Below, piece after piece: positions 1,144 to 64,000 of a stretch of DNA of 64,000 bases. The notes under the pieces are model-generated. The model did no database searches and was not told the origin of the DNA. It worked only from the letters and a program-made list of their open reading frames with translations. Source of the DNA: Anoxybacter fermentans (GTDB lineage: Bacteria; Bacillota; Halanaerobiia; DY22613); NCBI RefSeq assembly GCF_003991135.1, contig NZ_CP016379.1, forward strand, positions 2,852,001-2,916,000. The letters are read 5' to 3'. Numbering within the stretch: position 1 is the stretch's first letter; each line of letters starts with the position of its first letter. Position numbers and translations under genes: made by a program.

Positions 1144-1297
1144 ATGATTTCACTGCAAAAAGCTAATTTTTCGCTTCAAGAGAAATTTTTCGTTTAATCA
1201 TCTTAGTGAGATTTAAAAGAATGTCCTCATTACAGGATTTAGATGGTTCGAAAAATTTCTTTTGAAACGAAAAATTTGCTTTTTACAGTAAAATCAT
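1144..1297. repeat. Dispersed palindromic element, copy 1 (internally deleted)
   Basis: The inverted ends ATGATTTCACTGCAAAAAGC and, on the other strand, ATGATTTTACTGTAAAAAGC match the termini of the other copies. The arms AGAAATTTTTCG and ATCATCTTAGTGAGAT are recognisable. The second apical hairpin seen in full copies is missing, leaving about 154 bp. The element begins directly after the stop codon of the brxL-like gene, with no spacer, and lies just upstream of the EamA gene. Short TTAT sequences on both sides could be a target duplication. Confidence 0.85.
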
Positions 1298-3690: not shown

Positions 3691-5085
3691 GGGTCTATAA
3701 TTAATGTTGTGAAGAAAAAATTATAAAAAATAAAAAGGCATTTGCTGGCTCCGTTGAATTAATTAGTTGCGAACTAAAAACCAAAGAAAGGAGTCCAGCA
3801 AATGCAATATAATAATATCATAAAATTTCTTGATTTGCCAGACATTATTGCAACTGAAATTATTTCAACGGAGGACAGATATATTTTTATCGCTGAAGCA
3901 AAGAAAAATCACATTGTGTGTCCTCAGTGTGGTAATATCACTAATAAAATCCATGATACAAAATGGCAAAATATTAGAGACATCCCCATAAGAGGTAAAC
4001 TAGTAATCATTAGACTTCTAAAGAAAAGATATCGTTGTCCTTATTGTCATAAGAGGGGTATCCCTGAAAAATATGAAAGTATTGATAAATATGCCCGTAA
4101 AACCAAACGCTTTGATAAATATCTTGCTAAAGAAACTGTCAGCAAGGATTATTCTAAAGTTGCTAGAGAAAACGGGTTAAGTTATACAGCTGTTAATAAT
4201 GCAGTTAAAAAAGTAGTTGACCCTCTCATTAAACAACAAGTTTCAAAACTTAGTCAATTAAAAGCCATCAGTATCGATGAATTTGCAGTTTTAAAACGCC
4301 ATAAATATGGAGTTAGCATTACAGATCCAATTAATCGGGAGTTAATTGACATTTTACCTACTCGCAAAAAGGATGATTTAATTGACTACTTTAATTGTTG
4401 GGAAGATGAACAAAGACGACAGATTCAATCGATCTCTATGGATATGTGGCGGCCGTTCAAAGCAGTAGCAAATGCAGCATTTACTCATGCAAAAATTGTT
4501 ATAGATAAATTTCATCTTGTAACTTTAATGAACAGAGCCCTTGATGAAGTTAGAAAACAAGTTCAACAAACAGTAAATAATCATCAGAGAAGAAAGTTTT
4601 TTCAAAGTCGTTTATTACTCCAAAAACGAGCTGAAGAATTGACAGATGAAGAACATGAAAAGCTCATCAAATTATTTGAACTCAGTCCAGCTCTAGAAAA
4701 GGCCTGGGAATTAAAAGAGGAATTCAGAGACCTATTGCAGCTAGATGATGTGAAAGAAGCCACCAGAGCTCTAAAAAGGTGGTATAAAGAAGTAATAAAA
4801 AGCAAGCTGATGCCTTTTTACCAGGTAAAAAAGATAATACAAAGATGGGAAGAAAAAATACTAAATTATTTTAAGACTAAGATAACCAATGGCTTTGCTG
4901 AGGGTATCAATAACAAGATTAAATTGATCAAAAGGATTGGATATGGTGTTCCAAATGTTATGAATCTAAGGAGAAGAGTATTTAATGCAATGTTAAGTTA
5001 TTAAATTTAAATGTTTATTTCAAAATCAATTTACCAATCAATTCAACGGAGCCAACTTATCTTTCACAACATTTGACGGAGAGCC
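3691..5085 (+). mobile_element. ISL3-family insertion sequence, complete
   Basis: The element is 1395 bp. The left end GGGTCT...AATGTTGTGAA and the right end (read inward) GGCTCT...AATGTTGTGAA form imperfect inverted repeats. A second inner inverted pair, GGCTCCGTTGAATT, lies at about 3750 and 5040. It is bounded by a perfect 8-bp direct repeat TTAAAAAA at 3683-3690 and 5086-5093, the duplication length expected of ISL3 elements. With an intact transposase it is probably a recent and possibly active insertion. Confidence 0.93.
3802..5004 (+). CDS. ISL3-family transposase
   Basis: 400 residues, full length for the family. The N-terminal zinc ribbon has two CxxC pairs (CPQC near residue 40 and CPYCHK near 80), followed by a helix-turn-helix region. 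The DDE catalytic domain shows the first Asp in AISIDEFAV, the second in IDKFHLVTLMN, and the Glu in GFAEGINNKIKLIKRIGYG, the last being highly characteristic of DDE_Tnp_ISL3. The gene starts at ATG 3802 after AAAGGAG. It fills most of the 1395-bp element and appears intact, so the protein is probably functional in cut-and-paste transposition. Confidence 0.95.
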   Translation: MQYNNIIKFLDLPDIIATEIISTEDRYIFIAEAKKNHIVCPQCGNITNKIHDTKWQNIRDIPIRGKLVIIRLLKKRYRCPYCHKRGIPEKYESIDKYARKTKRFDKYLAKETVSKDYSKVARENGLSYTAVNNAVKKVVDPLIKQQVSKLSQLKAISIDEFAVLKRHKYGVSITDPINRELIDILPTRKKDDLIDYFNCWEDEQRRQIQSISMDMWRPFKAVANAAFTHAKIVIDKFHLVTLMNRALDEVRKQVQQTVNNHQRRKFFQSRLLLQKRAEELTDEEHEKLIKLFELSPALEKAWELKEEFRDLLQLDDVKEATRALKRWYKEVIKSKLMPFYQVKKIIQRWEEKILNYFKTKITNGFAEGINNKIKLIKRIGYGVPNVMNLRRRVFNAMLSY

Positions 5086-20310: not shown

Positions 20311-22091
20311 GGGGCTGTCCCAAAAGTAATTGATTACTTTTGGGCATGGCCCCTTTTTTCATTGTTCATTTTAAATTCATTGAAAATTTTTCTGTTAAGA
20401 AAATAAAAACCCATACCTGACATTCTATACTGTTGCCAGTTTAGCCAGGTTATGGGCTATACACAGTAAACCCCATTCAATTTTTACTTTCTCAAGGCCA
20501 CGAAGCAGAAATCTCCGGAATGACCAATTACCTTTGATCCTTCCAAAGACAGATTCCGCTTCAATTGCTCTTTGAGAACGGAGTTTCATACCTTTATCGG
20601 AACAAAGGTTTTCCTTTACCTTTTGCTTATATTCACGTAATTTAAAATTTATTCTTATTACTCGATCACCTTTGGCCCTGGTACAATTTTCTTTTAACTC
20701 ACACTCATCACAATTTTCGCATTTGTAATATCTAATTTGTTTAGTATATCCATTTTCAGTCTTAATTTCTTTTGTCTTACAGTAAATGAGTCTTCTTTGA
20801 ACAGGACAAATAAACTCGTCGTTTTCTTTATCATACGGCCAGTTTTCTACTTTAAATATATCATTTTTAAACTTCTTCTTTTGTTCTTTATGAAAAGTAT
20901 TATACTTAACATAAATATTAGTATTGGCTTTCTCTAAGTAATCATAATTTTCCTCACTACCATAACCTGAATCAGCTATCACATTTTCCGGAATCTTACC
21001 TGTAACTTCTTTTACTTTTTCTAAATGAGGTATTAAGCATCTTGAATCTGCCGGCCTTTGATGAATACTATAACCAACTACAAACTGATTCTCTGTACCT
21101 ATCTGAACATTATATGCGGGCTTCAATTGCCCATTTTTCATGTGGTCTTCTTTCATTCTCATAAAAGTTGCATCAGTATCTGTTTTAGAATAACTGTTTC
21201 GTCCATTTAAAATCTCTTCCTGCTGCTCATATTTTTTCATTCGAGGAAGACATTTATCTTTGAGCTCTTTAACTGTTTTTTTTAACTTCTTATCTTTGGA
21301 GTTCTTTTCTAGACGTTCTTCAAGTTCCTTAATTTTTTCTTCGAGTTTCTTTGAATCTATTTCTTTTCCTTCACCCATCTCCTCCAGGTCATTATCCCCA
21401 TACAATCTATTCTCTTCTTCGTTGGTTTTCTCAATCTCTTTTAAAAGTTCATTAATTTTTGCCCTAAGCCTTGCTTTGTACTTCTTTGTCGCTTTTCTCC
21501 AGACAAAGCTATATTTGTTTGCATTAGCTTCTATTTTTGTACCATCTAAAAAGTAATTCTCTAACTTTACATATCCTTCTTCTATAAGAAGTTCCAATAC
21601 TGATGCAAATACCTCATCAATAACATCTTTCATGATCTCTGATCTGAATCGGTTTATCGTCCGAAAATCAGGTTTATTGTTACCACTAAGCCACATAAAA
21701 TAAATATTTTCCCGAAGTGCCTTGGCAATTCGTCTTGATGAATATATTCTCTGAGTATAGGCATATACTATAACCTTAAGCATCATTTTCGGATGGTAGC
21801 TGCTTCTACCCCCACCTTTATATTTTTCAAGCAGGGGTTCAATATTCATCCTTTCTATAGCTGAATTTACCACCCTTACTAAATGATTTTCAGGAATAAA
21901 CACATCAAAACTCAAAGGCAACATTGTCTGATTCATATTATATTCAATAAATGTCTTTTTATTATGGTTTTTCCTCTTCATATTTATATTTTACCATAAA
22001 AAAAAGGTGTTGTCTTTATAAAAATTTCTGACAACACCTTTCTTTTAATATTTACTTTTGGGGGTTATAAAGGGACTTTTGGGACAGCCCC
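20311..22091 (-). mobile_element. IS1182-family insertion sequence, copy A (intact)
   Basis: 1781 bp with terminal inverted repeats GGGGCTGTCCCAAAAGT and, at the right end, its complement. The left end is itself a hairpin, 20311-20353: the repeat pairs with CTTTTGGGCATGGCCCC and is followed by TTTTTT, a terminator shape. Copy B at 28.2-30.0 kb is almost identical. I found no target duplication at either copy. Confidence 0.9.
20425..21981 (-). CDS. IS1182-family transposase
   Basis: 518 residues. The N-terminal DUF772-type region includes LPLSFDVFIPENHLVRVVNS, YKGGGRSSYHPKMMLKV and FRTINRFRSEI. The DDE core has the first Asp in NYFLDGTKIEANANKYSF, a helical insert rich in Lys and Glu (about residues 185-250), the second Asp in ENVIADSGYGSEENYDYL, and a C-terminal part with CENCDECELKENCTRAKG, a four-cysteine motif, before RAIEAESVFGRIKGNWSF with the catalytic Glu. 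Full length and uninterrupted, so probably active. Confidence 0.92.
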   Translation of the reverse strand: MKRKNHNKKTFIEYNMNQTMLPLSFDVFIPENHLVRVVNSAIERMNIEPLLEKYKGGGRSSYHPKMMLKVIVYAYTQRIYSSRRIAKALRENIYFMWLSGNNKPDFRTINRFRSEIMKDVIDEVFASVLELLIEEGYVKLENYFLDGTKIEANANKYSFVWRKATKKYKARLRAKINELLKEIEKTNEEENRLYGDNDLEEMGEGKEIDSKKLEEKIKELEERLEKNSKDKKLKKTVKELKDKCLPRMKKYEQQEEILNGRNSYSKTDTDATFMRMKEDHMKNGQLKPAYNVQIGTENQFVVGYSIHQRPADSRCLIPHLEKVKEVTGKIPENVIADSGYGSEENYDYLEKANTNIYVKYNTFHKEQKKKFKNDIFKVENWPYDKENDEFICPVQRRLIYCKTKEIKTENGYTKQIRYYKCENCDECELKENCTRAKGDRVIRINFKLREYKQKVKENLCSDKGMKLRSQRAIEAESVFGRIKGNWSFRRFLLRGLEKVKIEWGLLCIAHNLAKLATV

Positions 22092-22256
22092 TTTTATTGA
22101 TCAAACACAACTGACCAAAATATCTTAACCACCACCTACGACACATTCGTGTTTTCAGTGGTTTATTTTTATTAAAGCACGTGTTGATTTTCCTGTCAAG
22201 TAATAATATTTTTTCGTTTTCTGTTTTTTTATTTCTATTAAATCAAAAATTGCCCA

Positions 22257-22960: not shown

Positions 22961-23080
22961 AATCCCTCCTATTGGAGTAGTAGATAATAATTAACCAAAC
23001 CTAAACTTACTACACCTAGAACGGAGGGATTTATAAATTATTATTCGTTAACCACTATATAATATCCTCTTAAAATCCCC
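22961..23080. repeat. Second dispersed repeat, copy 1, with a hairpin
   Basis: AATCCCTCC at 22961 pairs with GGAGGGATT at 23023-23031, and an inner stem GGAGTAGTA pairs with TACTACACC with one mismatch. The 3' part, from about 22989 through ATTCGTTAACCACTATATA and ATATCCTCTTAAAATC to about 23078, is closely similar to DNA at 58893-58985. There is no coding capacity. The surrounding gap 22746-23237 shows nothing else. Confidence 0.65.
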
Positions 23081-28214: not shown

Positions 28215-29996
28215 GGGGCTGTCCCAAAAGTAATTGATTACTTTTGGGCATGGCCCCTTTTTTCATTGTTCATTTTAAATTCATTGAAAATTTTTCTGTT
28301 AAGAAAATAAAAACCCATACCTGACATTCTATACTGTTGCCAGTTTAGCCAGGTTATGGGCTATACACAGTAAACCCCATTCAATTTTTACTTTCTCAAG
28401 GCCACGAAGCAGAAATCTCCGGAATGACCAATTACCTTTGATCCTTCCAAAGACAGATTCCGCTTCAATTGCTCTTTGAGAACGGAGTTTCATACCTTTA
28501 TCGGAACAAAGGTTTTCCTTTACCTTTTGCTTATATTCACGTAATTTAAAATTTATTCTTATTACTCGATCACCTTTGGCCCTGGTACAATTTTCTTTTA
28601 ACTCACACTCATCACAATTTTCGCATTTGTAATATCTAATTTGTTTAGTATATCCATTTTCAGTCTTAATTTCTTTTGTCTTACAGTAAATGAGTCTTCT
28701 TTGAGCAGGACAAATAAACTCGTCGTTTTCTTTATCATACGGCCAGTTTTCTACTTTAAATATATCATTTTTAAACTTCTTCTTTTGTTCTTTATGAAAA
28801 GTATTATACTTAACATAAATATTAGTATTGGCTTTCTCTAAGTAATCATAATTTTCCTCACTACCATAACCTGAATCAGCTATCACATTTTCCGGAATCT
28901 TACCTGTAACTTCTTTTACTTTTTCTAAATGAGGTATTAAGCATCTTGAATCTGCCGGCCTTTGATGAATACTATAACCAACTACAAACTGATTCTCTGT
29001 ACCTATCTGAACATTATATGCGGGCTTCAATTGCCCATTTTTCATGTGGTCTTCTTTCATTCTCATAAAAGTTGCATCAGTATCTGTTTTAGAATAACTG
29101 TTTCGTCCATTTAAAATCTCTTCCTGCTGCTCATATTTTTTCATTCGAGGAAGACATTTATCTTTGAGCTCTTTAACTGTTTTTTTTTAACTTCTTATCT
29201 TTGGAGTTCTTTTCTAGACGTTCTTCAAGTTCCTTAATTTTTTCTTCGAGTTTCTTTGAATCTATTTCTTTTCCTTCACCCATCTCCTCCAGGTCATTAT
29301 CCCCATACAATCTATTCTCTTCTTCGTTGGTTTTCTCAATCTCTTTTAAAAGTTCATTAATTTTTGCCCTAAGCCTTGCTTTGTACTTCTTTGTCGCTTT
29401 TCTCCAGACAAAGCTATATTTGTTTGCATTAGCTTCTATTTTTGTACCATCTAAAAAGTAATTCTCTAACTTTACATATCCTTCTTCTATAAGAAGTTCC
29501 AATACTGATGCAAATACCTCATCAATAACATCTTTCATGATCTCTGATCTGAATCGGTTTATCGTCCGAAAATCAGGTTTATTGTTACCACTAAGCCACA
29601 TAAAATAAATATTTTCCCGAAGTGCCTTGGCAATTCGTCTTGATGAATATATTCTCTGAGTATAGGCATATACTATAACCTTAAGCATCATTTTCGGATG
29701 GTAGCTGCTTCTACCCCCACCTTTATATTTTTCAAGCAGGGGTTCAATATTCATCCTTTCTATAGCTGAATTTACCACCCTTACTAAATGATTTTCAGGA
29801 ATAAACACATCAAAACTCAAAGGCAACATTGTCTGATTCATATTATATTCAATAAATGTCTTTTTATTATGGTTTTTCCTCTTCATATTTATATTTTACC
29901 ATAAAAAAAAGGTGTTGTCTTTATAAAAATTTCTGACAACACCTTTCTTTTAATATTTACTTTTGGGGGTTATAAAGGGACTTTTGGGACAGCCCC
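28215..29996 (-). mobile_element. IS1182-family insertion sequence, copy B
   Basis: 1782 bp, one base longer than copy A, with the same terminal repeats and the same left-end hairpin (28215-28257). It is wedged between the convergent cheR and hflX genes: 11 bases after the cheR stop and 3 bases from the hflX stop. Near identity with copy A points to recent transposition. No clear target duplication. Confidence 0.9.
28329..29886 (-). pseudogene. IS1182-family transposase broken by a one-base frameshift
   Basis: Same protein as in copy A but read in two frames: 29173-29886 (N-terminal 237 residues) and 28329-29144 (C-terminal part). The cause is visible: a T-run at about 29180-29188 has nine Ts where copy A has eight. 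One further difference changes Val to Ala in a conserved ICPxQRR segment. If the extra T is real, this copy depends on copy A for transposase. Programmed slippage at the run is possible, though copy A needs none. Confidence 0.88.
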
Positions 29997-29999
29997 TGT

Positions 30000-31799: not shown

Positions 31800-31840
31800 A
31801 TAATTCCTCCTCCATTTAAGAACAAAATGCCCTTCGGGTA

Positions 31841-32046
31841 CTACACAAAGCTAATTTTTGCTTCACAGTGAAATTTTTCAAACCATCTAAAGTTAGATCT
31901 CAGTCGAAATAAGGCACACTAATCAACGGGCCCTCCTGGCCCCTGATTAGCTCATCACATCCTATGATGAAGCCTTATTTCTCCTTCGATCCCACTAAGA
32001 TGGTTTAACAAAAAATTTCAATAACGCTCAAAATTAGCTTTATGCA
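31841..32046. repeat. Dispersed palindromic element, copy 2 (hflX leader)
   Basis: About 206 bp, reversed relative to copies 3 and 6. On the minus strand it reads GAAATAAGGC, a hairpin with loop TAGGATG, a second hairpin GGGCC-AGGAG-GGCCC, and GCCTTATTTC, inside diverged outer arms. It lies between the rex terminator and hflX, about 40 bases upstream of the hflX start, in the sense that puts AGGA loops on the hflX transcript strand. Confidence 0.85.
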
Positions 32047-32103
32047 ATTTAATTCAAATTGTTATCCACAACCTACGAAAAAGTATAAATTCCTAAACAT
32101 CAA

Positions 32104-34215: not shown

Positions 34216-34440
34216 ATGATTATACTGCAAAAAGCTAATTTTGAGCGACATAGAAATTTTTCGCTAAACCATCTTAGCGAGATTTCCGACGAAATAAGGC
34301 CTCATCACAGGAGGTGATGAACTAATCAAGGGCCAAGAGGGCCCTTTAATTAGGAAGCCTTATTTCGGCGGAAATCGAACTTTAGATGGTTTAAAAAATT
34401 TCTTTTGAAACGAAAAATTAGCTTTTCGCAATATAATCAT
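34216..34440. repeat. Dispersed palindromic element, copy 3 (full length)
   Basis: 225 bp with inverted ends ATGATTATACTGCAAAAAGC and ATGATTATATTGCGAAAAGC. The core reads GAAATAAGGC, hairpin CTCATCAC-AGGAG-GTGATGAA, hairpin AAGGGCC-AAGAG-GGCCCTT, then GCCTTATTTC. It is intergenic, upstream of the CPBP gene and antisense to it. Confidence 0.93.
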
Positions 34441-34564
34441 ATATAGTATAACATATTTCACCTTTAAATTCAATAATATCAATATTTTTTGGTAATACAT
34501 ATAGTATCAAAAAAGTAAGAACAAAATACCTATCTAGTACTTTACCGTATTCATTAATCTTATT

Positions 34565-34607
34565 TCACTACAAAAAGCTAATTTTGAGTGACATCAAATT
34601 TTTTCGC
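34565..34607. repeat. Remnant of one arm of the palindromic element
   Basis: CACTACAAAAAGCTAATTTT followed by GAGTGACAT and TTTTTTCGCC matches the left terminal arm of the full copies. The apical hairpins and right arm are absent. Confidence 0.7.
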
Positions 34608-34671
34608 CTTTCATCTCTCCAATAAATTGGAGGTAATTCCTAAAAGAAACGTCCTAAATCTTTCTACTAAA

Positions 34672-39618: not shown

Positions 39619-39845
39619 TTGGTTAAACTGCAAAAAGCTAATTTTTCGCTCCTTGAGAAATTTTTCGAACCATCTAAAGCTCACCTTCCACCGAAATAAA
39701 GCTTCCTAATCAAAGGGCTCTCCTGGCCCTTAGAACTAGCTCATCACCTCCTATGATGAGGCCTTATTTCGTCGGAAATTTCGCTAAGATGATTTAGCGA
39801 AAAATTTCTATGTCGCTCAAAATTAGCTTTTTGCAGTAATAAATA
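39619..39845. repeat. Dispersed palindromic element, copy 4 (full length)
   Basis: About 227 bp, reversed relative to copies 3 and 6. The minus strand shows GACGAAATAAGGC, hairpin CTCATCAT-AGGAG-GTGATGAG, a second hairpin with AAGGGC and GCCCTT around CAGGAGA, and the closing arm. On the plus strand the first loop reads CTCCT within ATCACCTCCT, the sequence of the 16S rRNA 3' tail. Confidence 0.92.
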
Positions 39846-49901: not shown

Positions 49902-49945
49902 TATTCCCCTCCTATTCATAATTTGAAAAATTTAAAATGGTTATA

Positions 49946-50044
49946 CCTCCTCATATGAGGCCTTATTTCGACTTCAATCTCACCAAGATGGTTTAACGAA
50001 AAATTTCTATGTCGCTCAAAATTAGTTTTTTGCAGTATTATCTA
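49946..50044. repeat. Half-copy of the palindromic element in the pur leader (copy 5)
   Basis: The minus strand reads TACTGCAAAAAACTAATTTT, GAGCGACATAGAAATTTTTCG, ACCATCTTGGTGAGATT and GAAATAAGGCCTCATATGAGG, then AGGTATAACC where the match to full copies ends. So the outer left arm and part of the first hairpin remain; the second hairpin and right arm are lost. It lies between the PurBox pair and the purB ribosome site, inside the probable 5' leader. Confidence 0.88.
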
Positions 50045-53133: not shown

Positions 53134-56100
53134 ATGAATACCATTAATTTATCACCGAATGCCAAAAAGGTATTGGAAGCGCGTTATTTACAACGTAATG
53201 AAGAACATCAACTCATTGAAACACCGGAAGAACTTTTCGACCGTGTTGCTTCTAACATCGCCGAAGCAGAACGCCTTTATGGCGGAGATGAAGCTAAAGC
53301 TAAGGAAACTTTTTATCAACTGATGACTAATCTGGATTTTCTCCCTAATTCACCTACTTTGATGAATGCAGGAACAGATTTACAACAGTTATCAGCCTGT
53401 TTTGTCTTACCTGTTGAAGATAGTATGGAAGGAATTTTTGAGGCTGTTAAAAATTCTGCTATAATCCATAAGAGCGGCGGCGGTACCGGCTTTAGTTTTA
53501 GCCGTCTCAGGCCCAAAAATGATATTGTCCGTACCACCGGAGGAATTGCCAGCGGACCTATCTCCTTCATGCAGGTCTTTGATGCTGCTACCAATACTGT
53601 AAAACAGGGTGGAAAACGCCGGGGCGCTAACATGGGCATTCTTCGAGTAGACCACCCGGATATTCTGGAATTTATAACCTGTAAGAAAGATGAAAACCGT
53701 TTGAATAATTTCAATATCTCTGTAGCCCTTACTGAAGAGTTTATGGAAGCTGTAGAACGAGATGAAGAATATGATTTGATTAATCCAAGGACCAATAAAG
53801 TTGTTAAACGACTGCGGGCCAGAGAAGTCTTTAATTTAATCGTCGAAATGGCACATGCTAACGGCGAACCGGGAATTATTTTCCTTGATCGGATTAACCG
53901 GGACAACCCTACTCCCCACTTAGGAGAGATTGAGAGTACCAATCCGTGTATTACCGGTGATACCCTGATTGCAACAGAATATGGATTAATAAGAATAGAT
54001 GAACTCTATGCCAAATATAAAAATGGTGGGCTTAAAATTGTAACCGACAATCGGGTTCCTACTATTATAGACTCACTGCCAGATATGTCCAATATAGGTA
54101 CCTCCTTAAATATAACATCCAGGGTCTATAAAAATGGTAAAAAAGAAGTTATAAAACTGACAACTAAAGCCGGTTATGAAATAAAAGCAACCCCTGATCA
54201 TAAATTTCTGACAGATAAGGGATGGAAAGAGCTTAAGAACATAAAAGTTGGAGATAAAGTTCTCATCCAATCCGGTGCAGGATCTTTTTCACAGCATAAA
54301 GAACTTCCCTTCAAAATTCAAAATACTTATACTGATGATAATGGACAAACATATACCTTTAATTTCCCTGATAAATGGTCCAAAGAATTAGGCCAGGTTC
54401 TTGGCTGGCTTATCGGTAATGGCTGGTTAAGGGATGATGACAAAAACTATCAGGTTGGTTTCACTTTCAGCAGTGATGATAAAGAAATCCTGAACTATCT
54501 AAAACCTATCATTAATAAGATGTATGGTAAAGAAATTCAGGAAGTTAAGCAGGAGAATAGTATTTACCACCTCTCTTATCATAGTAAATATTTTGTAGAG
54601 TTTTTTAAGAAACTGGGTGTAAAAGCTACTGAAGCTGAAAATAAAAAAGTACCAGAAACAATATTTACCGCACCTTATGAAACCGTAACTGGTTTCCTTA
54701 TGACACTTTTTACTGCGGATGGTACAGTTAAAATAGATGAAGAGCACGGAAATTATTATGTTCAGCTAATATCTAAATCAAAGGAATTATTAAAACAGGT
54801 TCAACTTTTGCTTCTCAATTTGGGAATTAAATCCAGGATTTATGACAGGAGTAGAGCACCTCATGAAGATAACTTTGATGGTGAAAAAACAGATGGAAAA
54901 CTTTATGAATTAAATATTTCCCATGCCTCCTTAAAGGTATTTGCAGATAAAATTAATTTCCTTTCTATAAAAAAGAGAAATCTGTTAGCTAAAATTGAAG
55001 GCAAAGATCTTTGCTCTGAAAAAATGACAGAAACGGTTATGAAAATAGAGTACCTGGGTGAAGAAATTGTCTATGATTTAACCGAACCTGTAACCCATTC
55101 ACTTATAGCAAACGGTATTATTGTCCATAATTGTGGCGAACAACCGCTTTTACCATATGAAGCGTGTAACTTAGGTTCCATTAACCTGGCCAATATGGTT
55201 AAGACTGAAAATGGCAAAGCTGTTATCGATTACGATAAGCTGGCTCGTGTTACTGCTGATGCTGTACATTTCCTGGATAATGTTATCGATATGAACCAGT
55301 ACCCCTTAGAGAAGATCGATAAAATGGCCAAGGGGAACCGCAAAATTGGCCTTGGTGTTATGGGTTGGGCAGATATGCTGATTAAACTGGGCATTCCTTA
55401 TAACTCTGAAGAAGCTGTAGAGCTGGCAGAAAAAGTAATGTCCTTTATCAATGAACATTCTAAGGCAAAAAGCCGCAAGTTAGCAAAAGAACGGGGAGCT
55501 TTCCCAAATATCAAAGGTAGTATTTATACCGAACCGATTCGTAATGCCACCACAACCACCATTGCACCGACAGGCAGTATCAGTATCATTGCCAATTGTA
55601 GCAGCGGAATTGAACCTATATTTGCCATTTCATATGAACGGCATGTCATAGATGGTACATTGATCGAAGTACATCCTCTCTTTGAAGCTGTTGCCAAAGA
55701 AAGAGGTTTTTACAGCCCTGAGTTAATGGAACGGATTGCCCGTGAAGGTTCGATTCAGGATATTGAAGAAATTCCTGAAGATGTAAAAAGAATTTTCGTT
55801 ACAGCCCATGATATTTCACCGGAATGGCACATTCGGATGCAGGCAGCATTCCAGAAATATACCGATAATGCAGTAAGCAAAACAGTAAACTTCCCACATG
55901 AAGCTACTCTGGCCGATGTAGCAAAAGTCTTTAAGCTGGCCTATAAATTGGGCTGTAAAGGCGTAACTATTTATAGAGATGGCAGCCGGAGCAGCCAGGT
56001 TCTTCAAACAAAAAAAGATTCAAAGCAAAAGAAAACTGAAGAGAAGAAAGTCAAACGCCCAAGACCTAAAATCACCTTTGGAACAACAGAAAAGACCAGG

Positions 56101-56577
56101 ATCGGTTGCGGTAAACTCTACATTACCATTAACTCAGACGAGCAGGGAATCTGTGAAGTCTTCACTTCCACCGGGCGCGGCGGTGGCTGCCGTTCCCAGT
56201 CTGAAGCTACAAGTCGGTTGATCTCCCTGGCCTTACGATCAGGAATACCCATTGAAGAAATTATCCATCAACTGAAAGGAATACGCTGTGCCGCTGCCAT
56301 TAAACGAAAAGGTGTGCCCAATGTATCCTGTCCTGATGCTATCGCCCGGGCAATAGAAAACTTTCTGGAATATACGAAAGGAAAACCTTTCTATCCTGTT
56401 TCTGCTTCTGAAATTGCTGCAACCTCCGTCGACCTGTTCGTTGAAGAAGATGAAGATTATGATATATTAGAAGATGATAGTAACGGCTGTGCCGTCTGCC
56501 CTGACTGCGGCACAGAGCTAGAACATGAAGGCGGATGCGTCATTTGCCGTTCGTGCGGTTATAGTAAGTGTGGGTAA
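53134..56577 (+). CDS. nrdJ: Adenosylcobalamin-dependent (class II) ribonucleotide reductase with intein
   Basis: 1147 residues before splicing, 752 after removal of the intein. Host features include [20 protein letters not shown] and [20 protein letters not shown], the first redox Cys region; [20 protein letters not shown], the thiyl-radical Cys and Glu motif, interrupted by the intein; and [20 protein letters not shown]. The C-terminal TSCPD domain has [20 protein letters not shown] and a final zinc-ribbon ([14 protein letters not shown] then [10 protein letters not shown]). It reduces ribonucleotides with B12 and needs no oxygen, fitting an anaerobe. The ATG follows AGGAGG. The leader is too short for a cobalamin riboswitch, and none was seen. 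Confidence 0.96.
   Translation: [1147 protein letters not shown]
53947..55131 (+). mobile_element. Intein with LAGLIDADG homing endonuclease inside nrdJ
   Basis: Residues 272-666 of the precursor, 395 residues. N-terminal splicing block: Cys1 in [17 protein letters not shown]; block B [12 protein letters not shown]; C-terminal blocks [18 protein letters not shown] and IIVHN followed by Cys of the host. Two endonuclease motifs are visible: [11 protein letters not shown] and [11 protein letters not shown]. The first has Asn where RNR inteins normally have the catalytic Asp (GDG), so cutting activity may be lost while splicing residues (Cys1, TxxH, HN, +1 Cys) are intact. The +1 Cys is the enzyme's radical-site cysteine. 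Confidence 0.93.
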
Positions 56578-56616: not shown

Positions 56617-56841
56617 ATGATTTTCCTACAAAAAAGCTAATTTTGAGCGACATAGAAATTTTTCGCTAAATCATCTTAGCGAGATTTTCGACGAAATAAG
56701 GCCTCATCACAGGAGGTGATGAGCTAATCAAGGGCCAGGAGGGCCCTTTGATTAGGAAGCCTTATTTCGACGGAAATCGAGCTTTAGATGATTCGAAAAA
56801 TTTCTCAAGAAGCGAAAAATTAGCTTTTGGCAGTATAATCT
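56617..56841. repeat. Dispersed palindromic element, copy 6 (full length, reference)
   Basis: 225 bp, the best-formed copy. The closing stem GAAATAAGGC / GCCTTATTTC encloses hairpin 1, CTCATCAC-AGGAG-GTGATGAG, and hairpin 2, AAGGGCC-AGGAG-GGCCCTT, extended by CTAATC / GATTAG. The outer arms pair for most of their length. Both loops are AGGAG. It lies between the convergent nrdJ and ubiB-like genes. Confidence 0.95.
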
Positions 56842-58892: not shown

Positions 58893-58985
58893 GTCAAACC
58901 AAAACTTATTATATTCAAACTGGAAAGATTTATAAGTTATAATTCGCCAACCACTACATAATATCCTCTTAAAATCTTAATCAAA
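58893..58985. repeat. Second dispersed repeat, copy 2
   Basis: Similar over about 90 bases to 22989-23080: AAACC.AAACTTA, GATTTATAA.TTAT, ATTCG..AACCACTA.ATAATA and TCCTCTTAAAATC are shared in order. The 5' hairpin arm of copy 1 (AATCCCTCC) is not found here. Upstream of the phasin-like gene, no coding capacity. Confidence 0.65.
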
Positions 58986-59165: not shown

Positions 59166-59385
59166 ATGATTAAACTACAAAAAACTAATTTTGAGCGCCA
59201 TAGAAATTTTCGCTAAACCATCTTAGTGAGATTAAAAAGAATGGCCTCATATGAGGATGTGATGAACTAATCATGGGTCATAAGGACCCATTGATTAGTG
59301 TGCCTTATTTCGACTGAAATTGAACTTTATATAGCTCGAAAAATTTCTTTTGAAGCGAAAAATTTGCTTTTTACAGTAAAATCAT
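59166..59385. repeat. Dispersed palindromic element, copy 7 (full length, diverged)
   Basis: 220 bp with ends ATGATTAAACTAC and ATGATTTTACTGT. Hairpin 1 reads TCATA-TGAGGATG-TGATGA. Hairpin 2 reads ATGGGTC-ATAAG-GACCCAT, which differs from copy 6 at two base pairs, both compensated. The gaps on either side (58986-59165 and 59386-59672) hold nothing else recognisable. Confidence 0.92.
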
Positions 59386-63733: not shown

Positions 63734-63782
63734 CTTAGTGAGATTGAAAAAAATGGTCTTATTACAGGATGTGATGAGCTAC
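63734..63782. repeat. Remnant of the palindromic element (copy 8)
   Basis: CTTAGTGAGATTGAAAAAAA, TGGTCTTATTACAGGATG and TGATGAGCTA follow the order of the left arm and first hairpin in copies 1 and 7. The rest is missing or merged into the end of the neighbouring phosphodiesterase gene. Confidence 0.7.
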
Positions 63783-63784
63783 TT

Positions 63785-64000
63785 CTAAGAGGCAGGATGG
63801 TTTATCAGTTCATCCCTTATACTTCGTGCTAGCGCAGGATAATTTGTAATTATACCATCTACTTGCCATTCAATCATCTGTTTTATCTCAGCTTTGTTAT
63901 TTACCGTCCAGGTAAATACCTGATACCCCATTTGATGACATTGCTCTATCAATTCCCTATCAACAAAAAATCGATTGGGATTTAAAGACCTGGCTTGAAA
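63785..64000 (-). CDS. Glycerophosphodiester phosphodiesterase, C-terminal end (partial)
   Basis: The last 71 residues of a GDPD-family protein, entering from the right edge and ending at TAG 63785-63787. The segment YQVFTWTVNNKAEIKQMIEW followed by QVDGIITNYPALARSIRDEL is the well-known end of the TIM-barrel domain (W-T-V-N, then D-G-I-I-T-N-Y-P). It releases glycerol 3-phosphate from glycerophosphodiesters. The final residues lie beside a remnant of the palindromic element, which may have supplied the last few codons. Confidence 0.9.
   Translation of the reverse strand, partial: FQARSLNPNRFFVDRELIEQCHQMGYQVFTWTVNNKAEIKQMIEWQVDGIITNYPALARSIRDELINHPAS

Follow-up and report, generated by a model that had tools for sequence, protein, structure and literature searches.

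Within a 64,000-nucleotide stretch of the Anoxybacter fermentans genome (hereafter called the window; G000:C1:2852001-2916000), a long imperfect palindrome recurs again and again, and the copy that starts near position 34,216 raises the question of what kind of element this is. The initial annotation had left the choice between a MITE, a REP-like family and a structured RNA. Here, we report how the copies are distributed, what their ends and their interior look like, and which of these readings the data favor.

Copies of the repeat in the window and in the genome

The index copy covers positions 34218..34438 on the + strand (221 bp between the terminal G and C), it is bounded by GATTATACTGC...GCAATATAATC and it scored 134 bits with model CM R1. 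Its left terminal inverted repeat (GATTATACTGCAAAAAGCTAATTTT; 34218..34242, + strand) was located with an end profile built from 48 ends and the right one occupies 34414..34438 (- strand). A copy or remnant was found at every one of the nine places listed in the initial annotation, and we refined the spans. Full copies are located at 31839..32053 (- strand; profile, CM R1 and R2), at 39620..39843 (- strand; CM R1 and R2), at 56617..56840 (+ strand), which is the best head match of the window (CM R1 146.8 bits, R2 96.3 bits), and at 59168..59383 (+ strand; CM R1 and R2), where the sequence is diverged. Incomplete copies comprise a deletion derivative of 150 bp that lacks half of hairpin 1 and the whole of hairpin 2 (1146..1295, + strand), a left half (49945..50042, - strand; nhmmer 81.8 bits), a solo left-end fragment close to the index copy (34563..34608, + strand; nhmmer E 9e-6) and a head remnant (63734..63800, + strand). 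E-values of the window copies extended from about 1e-87 (best other copy) to 1e-9 (short pieces), and the remnant at 63734 was a weak match (E 0.011 in blastn; E 3e-5 and 21.5 bits with the nhmmer profile).

For the genome as a whole, we analyzed forty 20-kb stretches spaced over the genome together with the window, which amounts to 864 kb or 24% of the complete 3.56-Mb genome. Here, we counted 138 copies (68 in the 464 kb of the first sample and 70 in the 400 kb of the second), which corresponds to about 570 copies per genome (range about 520-620 per 3.56 Mb). The earlier expectation of hundreds of copies is thus borne out, and neither this sample nor the homologues in other genomes described below would allow the family to be confined to the window. 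In the first sample, 2.7% of the DNA consisted of repeat copies. The 72 full copies of this genome share a mean identity of 85%. As had been proposed from the window, copies lie in both orientations (on the + and the - strand, orientation being set by the asymmetric head) and nearly all are intergenic, since an overlap of more than 30% with an ORF call was seen for only 6 of the 138. That they encode nothing is consistent with the ORF list. Taken together, the repeat is short (about 221 bp), free of ORFs and present in high copy number. Searches of plasmids and phages with the repeat gave no match, and a literature search with the letters of the terminal inverted repeat returned unrelated papers only.

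Ends, target duplications and an empty site

The ends of the repeat are inverted (GATTAAACTGCAAAAAGC; terminal G/C), and in inverted orientation they read GATTAAACTGCAAAAAGCTAATTTT; terminal inverted repeats are thus present. Exact target duplications of 6-8 bp flank 40 of the 99 two-ended copies, compared with about 1.5 expected in shuffled flanks. They resemble ATAAAT, ATTTAT or ATTAAAT, and the insertion sites are AT-rich and of the type A..AT. The remaining 59 copies lack an exact duplication of at least 6 bp, which is expected for old copies and is also compatible with other histories. Automatic searches for empty sites mostly yielded self-matches or ambiguous matches, which were discarded, and a single case in the same genome was retained. 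At L069:19358-19577, a copy is flanked by the duplication ATTTAT, and in the paralogous stretch L069:15754-15920 a single ATTTAT runs through the site. The repeats represent old copies of a small mobile DNA element, about 570 per genome, and together with the partner insertion sequence (IS) described next their classification as MITEs is well supported.

A decayed partner insertion sequence

The partner was reached by way of unpaired ends in the related genome G003. These pointed to an IS lying at contig breaks, through which complete copies in the class were then located. In the genome of the window, we found a decayed relative of 1.65 kb (G000:C1:1188660-1190312), and its ends match those of the repeat over 16-17 nt each. 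The decayed IS has the first 16 nt of the repeat (GATTATACTGCAAAAA) as its right end and the 17-nt consensus of the repeat profile (GATTAAACTGCAAAAAG) as its left end. The transposase of this IS, a degraded PF01609 match (L122), shares 42-47% identity with the intact transposase at L293 and carries an internal deletion and a frameshift; within the sequence searched from this genome, the element is broken and occurs as a single copy. The intact IS at L293 has 34-bp terminal inverted repeats that start with GATTGCACTGCGAAAAG and are identical at both ends, it is flanked by the duplication ATAGAT and it encodes a protein of 530 aa with DDE_Tnp_1_6 and DUF772 domains. Other intact relatives have duplications of 6-7 bp (TTAATTA, TTTATTT, ATATAT). 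The best NCBIfam match of the partner transposase was NF033551 (IS1182-like), at 129.8-172.7 bits for transposases of this type against a cutoff of 270. The ISDol1 group of ISNCY would presumably suit the 6-7 bp duplications of the partner IS. A search of plasmids with the partner fragment gave no match.

The similarity between repeat and partner IS ends after about 17 nt. Beyond this point the two differ, which means that the repeat is no truncated form of the IS, and because the IS shares just these roughly 17 nt with it, the interior is foreign cargo. From the matching ends and the size of the duplications, we infer that the partner transposase moved the repeats. A DDE transposase of about 530 aa (DDE_Tnp_1_6 plus DUF772, distantly IS1182-like) would once have cut and pasted them via these ends; its gene in this genome has decayed, with the old repeat copies remaining behind.

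The IS1182, ISL3 and IS1380 elements of the genome, which carry PF01609 or ISL3 transposases, were considered as partners and rejected since they have other ends, and IS1634 (DUF4277) is absent. The partner IS is distinct from this genome's own IS1182-type element, to which it is 22% identical over a short stretch only. Two near-identical copies of that IS1182-type element (ends GGGGCTGTCCCAAAAGT; about 20 copies genome-wide) lie in the window at 20311-22092 and 28215-29997, and the transposase ORF of the second is split. The window also contains an ISL3-type transposase (4267-4980; one of about 40 genome matches), and the ISL3 copy that we examined has the ends GGCTCCGTTGAATT. Further features of the window are a ribonucleotide reductase with an intein that carries a LAGLIDADG domain (53134-56577) and a separate 82-nt repeat, the two copies of which (22996-23077 and 58895-58976) are 80% identical.

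Structure and covariation of the interior

The consensus of the repeat folds into one long hairpin that ends in a head of two hairpins, and for the index copy the RNA fold z-scores were -12.8 on the + strand and -16.0 on the - strand. The conserved head, a closing stem plus two hairpins in a three-way junction, covers 34287..34370 (+ strand; CM R2 88.9 bits, E 4.5e-19) and shows covariation. Its loops read AGGAG and AAGAG in the index copy and AGGAG twice in the consensus; in this genome both loops are usually AGGAN. Alignment reading across genomes gave A[G/C]GAN for hairpin 1 and AGGAN for the other, and in 13 of 31 relatives the loop of hairpin 1 is ACGA instead of AGGA. Below the head, the arms keep the motif CTTRGYGA / GAGCYTTAG, which we read from the alignments as a tandem G-A pair. 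In the index copy, this module lies at 34273..34281 (5' side, ...CTTAGCGAG...) and 34374..34386 (3' side, ...ATCGAACTTTAGATG...), both on the + strand (alignments A1, A2 and A4).

Compensatory changes were seen at 23 of 36 pairs in alignment A1, which covers five genomes. In alignment A2, both sides had changed in 33 of 36 pairs and 93.7% of the cells were paired; none of 500 shuffles reached the observed value on any measure, and sliding the partners destroyed the signal. A2 leans toward structure, since it was fitted to the model and a few of its rows read the same palindromes on the opposite strand. The core alignment A3, made with plain MAFFT and free of opposite-strand rows, gave 25 of 30 pairs, and its shuffles reached the observed value in 0 of 500 cases on four of five measures and in 13 of 500 on the fifth. 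In another genus, we also compared copies that occupy one and the same site in sister species. Where the copies had diverged more, two comparisons yielded 16 compensatory to 8 broken pairs and 18 to 12; the remaining comparisons, in which the copies were closer or the outcome more ambiguous, gave 5 to 10 (L156/L159), 1 to 4 and 2 to 12 (L174/L175). Within the genome of the window, we counted 497 broken pairs among the 72 full copies, compared with 570 expected from shuffles. Since pairs break nearly as often as in shuffled data, the copies seem to decay after landing, and pair breakage within the genome lends no support to a function of individual copies. The same-site and within-genome comparisons thus place the evidence for a maintained fold between genomes and not within this one. 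Conservation of the cargo fold across the phylum as a single-strand structure is well supported by these sequence alignments, and template switching is the main reservation.

Spread of the fold and exchange of the ends

CM R1 recovered the fold from 16 of the 59 genomes of the class, and the same head is present in other families of the class. With CM R2, which covers the core only, 19 of the 398 phylum genomes gave a match, and 13 of these lie outside the class. The weakest of these, G180, had an E-value of 3.3e-4 per genome, which is insufficient alone across 398 genomes. The arm motif, which lies outside model R2, can be read in the majority of the out-of-class loci. Two out-of-class genomes with readable ends (G148 and G226) have, by eye, GATT....CAAAAAG ends and duplications of 6-7 bp. 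G003 and G026, two relatives, have different ends (GATTAGAACACAAAAAGG) and likewise duplications of 6-7 bp. G002 contains at least 54 near-identical copies, and those examined are enclosed by other ends (CTGGACTTTCCCC / GGAGTTTCCCC) and flanked by duplications of about 8-11 bp. The cargo has thus also been carried by a second transposon type. Headless and nearly empty versions are present in G002 as well.

Several neighboring observations were made along the way. Another long-palindrome family occurs in Ca. Fischerbacteria (G061, L123-L127), and some of its members start with TGGAGTTTCCCC, the end of the outer element of G002; a variant of the Ca. Fischerbacteria palindromes (L090, L091) has the end ACTGCAAAAAGG. 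In G177, a cobalamin riboswitch (L322:1110-1301) precedes a copy of the conserved head by about 200 bp, and in G044 a GC-rich head (62%; L163:1501-1586) follows shortly after a gene that resembles a GTPase-type sulfate adenylyltransferase or an elongation factor.

Comparison with named families

When the index copy was compared with Rfam, both at the gathering threshold and at E 10, nothing convincing was found. The earlier statement that the repeat cannot be assigned to a named family therefore holds for the window copies in Rfam, and two distant relatives come near TwoAYGGAY (RF01731), which a 2010 publication includes as a probable RNA found in human gut, gammaproteobacteria and Clostridiales (PMC2864571). 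The gathering score of this family is 43. Window copies gave no match to it even at E 10, and both relatives stay below that score with matches that extend over the full model: in G062, 36.6 bits at the place found by R2 (3.8e-7) and 40.0 bits at a tandem duplicate, and in G180, 26.8 bits. The TwoAYGGAY-like structure of G062 (L308:1429-1993) is tandemly duplicated with a period of about 302 bp. TwoAYGGAY and the repeat are alike in that a long imperfect stem closes on two adjacent terminal hairpins with GGA loops, and for TwoAYGGAY, too, tandem-GAs have been reported within a stem (PMC4333381). The loops themselves differ, those of the repeat being mostly five-base A[G/C]GAN and those of TwoAYGGAY six-base AYGGAY. 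Two AYGGAY loops were not seen together in the repeat, where AGGAN or ACGAN prevails, and some out-of-class relatives have, by eye, AYGGAY in one loop. The likeness in layout is strong, and the repeat may be regarded as a candidate relative at most, with the two distant relatives below the Rfam threshold and the window copies unmatched.

Among mobile elements, bcr1 of the Bacillus cereus group resembles the repeat in being short, intergenic, free of ORFs and present in high copy number; bcr1-3 are MITE-like and often lie within transcripts (PMC3446304). However, bcr1 is a different element, and the repeat is distinguished by the partner IS remnant and the phylum-wide interior fold. A 110-bp MITE of Ca. 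Fischerbacteria RBG_13_37_8 has, like the repeat, the end GGCGAAACTGCAAAAAGCTAATTTT and clean 6-bp duplications (ATTAAT, AATAAT), but its interior is unrelated and shows no two-hairpin head by eye.

The head in the genome of the window

Two kinds of derivative recur in this genome, one without hairpin 2 (about 186 bp) and one without any head (135 bp). They share common breakpoints, lie at different sites and have their own duplications; headless copies with one common breakpoint are flanked by ATAAAGAT, ATAAAAT and TTCTAT. Since headless copies have their own duplications at different sites, transposition does not seem to require the head. Between co-directional genes, both samples together showed no strand preference (57:46, p 0.32), and a bias in the first sample (33:17) was gone once the second sample had been added. 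Headless spread, near-neutral decay and the lack of a strand bias together make the head look dispensable here, both for transposition and for use by the host. In this genome, the fold may be passenger DNA that is unnecessary for jumping.

Discussion

Of the three options that we started from, the MITE is supported by target duplications, the empty site and the partner IS. The REP-like option is not, as it is at odds with the size, the target duplications and the partner transposase. The structured RNA is supported in the restricted sense of a conserved single-strand fold that the element carries. REP/RAYT sequences are palindromes of 20-40 bp that are moved by a tyrosine transposase, and neither they nor IS200/IS605-type elements leave a target duplication. 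Movement as single-stranded DNA by such a tyrosine (HUH) transposase would suit a hairpin-rich, intergenic repeat of high copy number, but the size of the repeat, its 6-8 bp duplications and its match to DDE-IS ends reduce the chance of this to almost nothing. We also consider it very improbable that the repeat is an ordinary MITE without cargo that arose by internal deletion of an IS. The ends common to repeat and decayed IS would agree with such an origin, yet the similarity stops about 17 nt in and the head model R2 gave no match inside the IS copies searched.

The remaining alternatives concern the interior. Covariation might be a by-product of palindromy, produced in a plain MITE when template switching or gene conversion keeps the two arms complementary, in which case the fold would be under no selection. 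The whole element is palindromic, arm changes are paired, and within the genome paired changes are moderately above shuffles. Such correction would, however, erase mismatches, whereas the tandem G-A positions are kept across the phylum, as are the asymmetric loops and junctions while the surrounding stems change, and we therefore rate this explanation as unlikely. Somewhat harder to sustain is the idea that copies are kept for the host as CsrA sponges or cis-regulatory RNAs. It derives from TwoAYGGAY, which is reported to have two tandem-GAs in a stem and was later proposed to bind and sequester CsrA (PMC4333381), and it would be in line with the two AGGAG-loop hairpins of the consensus in this genome and with the two distant relatives that score just under the TwoAYGGAY threshold. 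Against this, copies show no strand preference and decay almost like shuffled controls, and the ACGA loop of hairpin 1 in many relatives indicates that a pair of GGA loops is no conserved requirement, so CsrA fits less well. Within the 24% of the genome that was sampled, no csrA was detected.

We consequently favor, with good confidence, the reading of the repeat as a non-autonomous MITE of about 221 bp, for which the transposase of the DDE IS is the putative mover and whose interior is a conserved fold of non-IS origin and would be a passenger in this genome. That the fold acts as a transcribed structured RNA, its loops being recognized by a protein either in some hosts or in the source element, is the likeliest function among those considered, but it is the least certain part of this reading and on balance doubtful. 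As a tentative proposal, a phylum-wide family of structured RNAs that overlaps TwoAYGGAY may spread as cargo of small DNA transposons and may have switched transposon types. If this were true, some of the orphan RNA families in the databases would travel as passengers of transposons and have a conserved cellular partner molecule.

MITEs are usually regarded as passive deletion products, the interior of which is irrelevant. In the present family, the ends drift and, as in G002, even differ in type from one genus to another, while the interior keeps its fold with compensatory changes. Even once the transposase gene has decayed, a single family can fill more than 2% of a genome. The conserved interior raises the testable question of what reads the structure, and the repeat family offers a route to explaining TwoAYGGAY.
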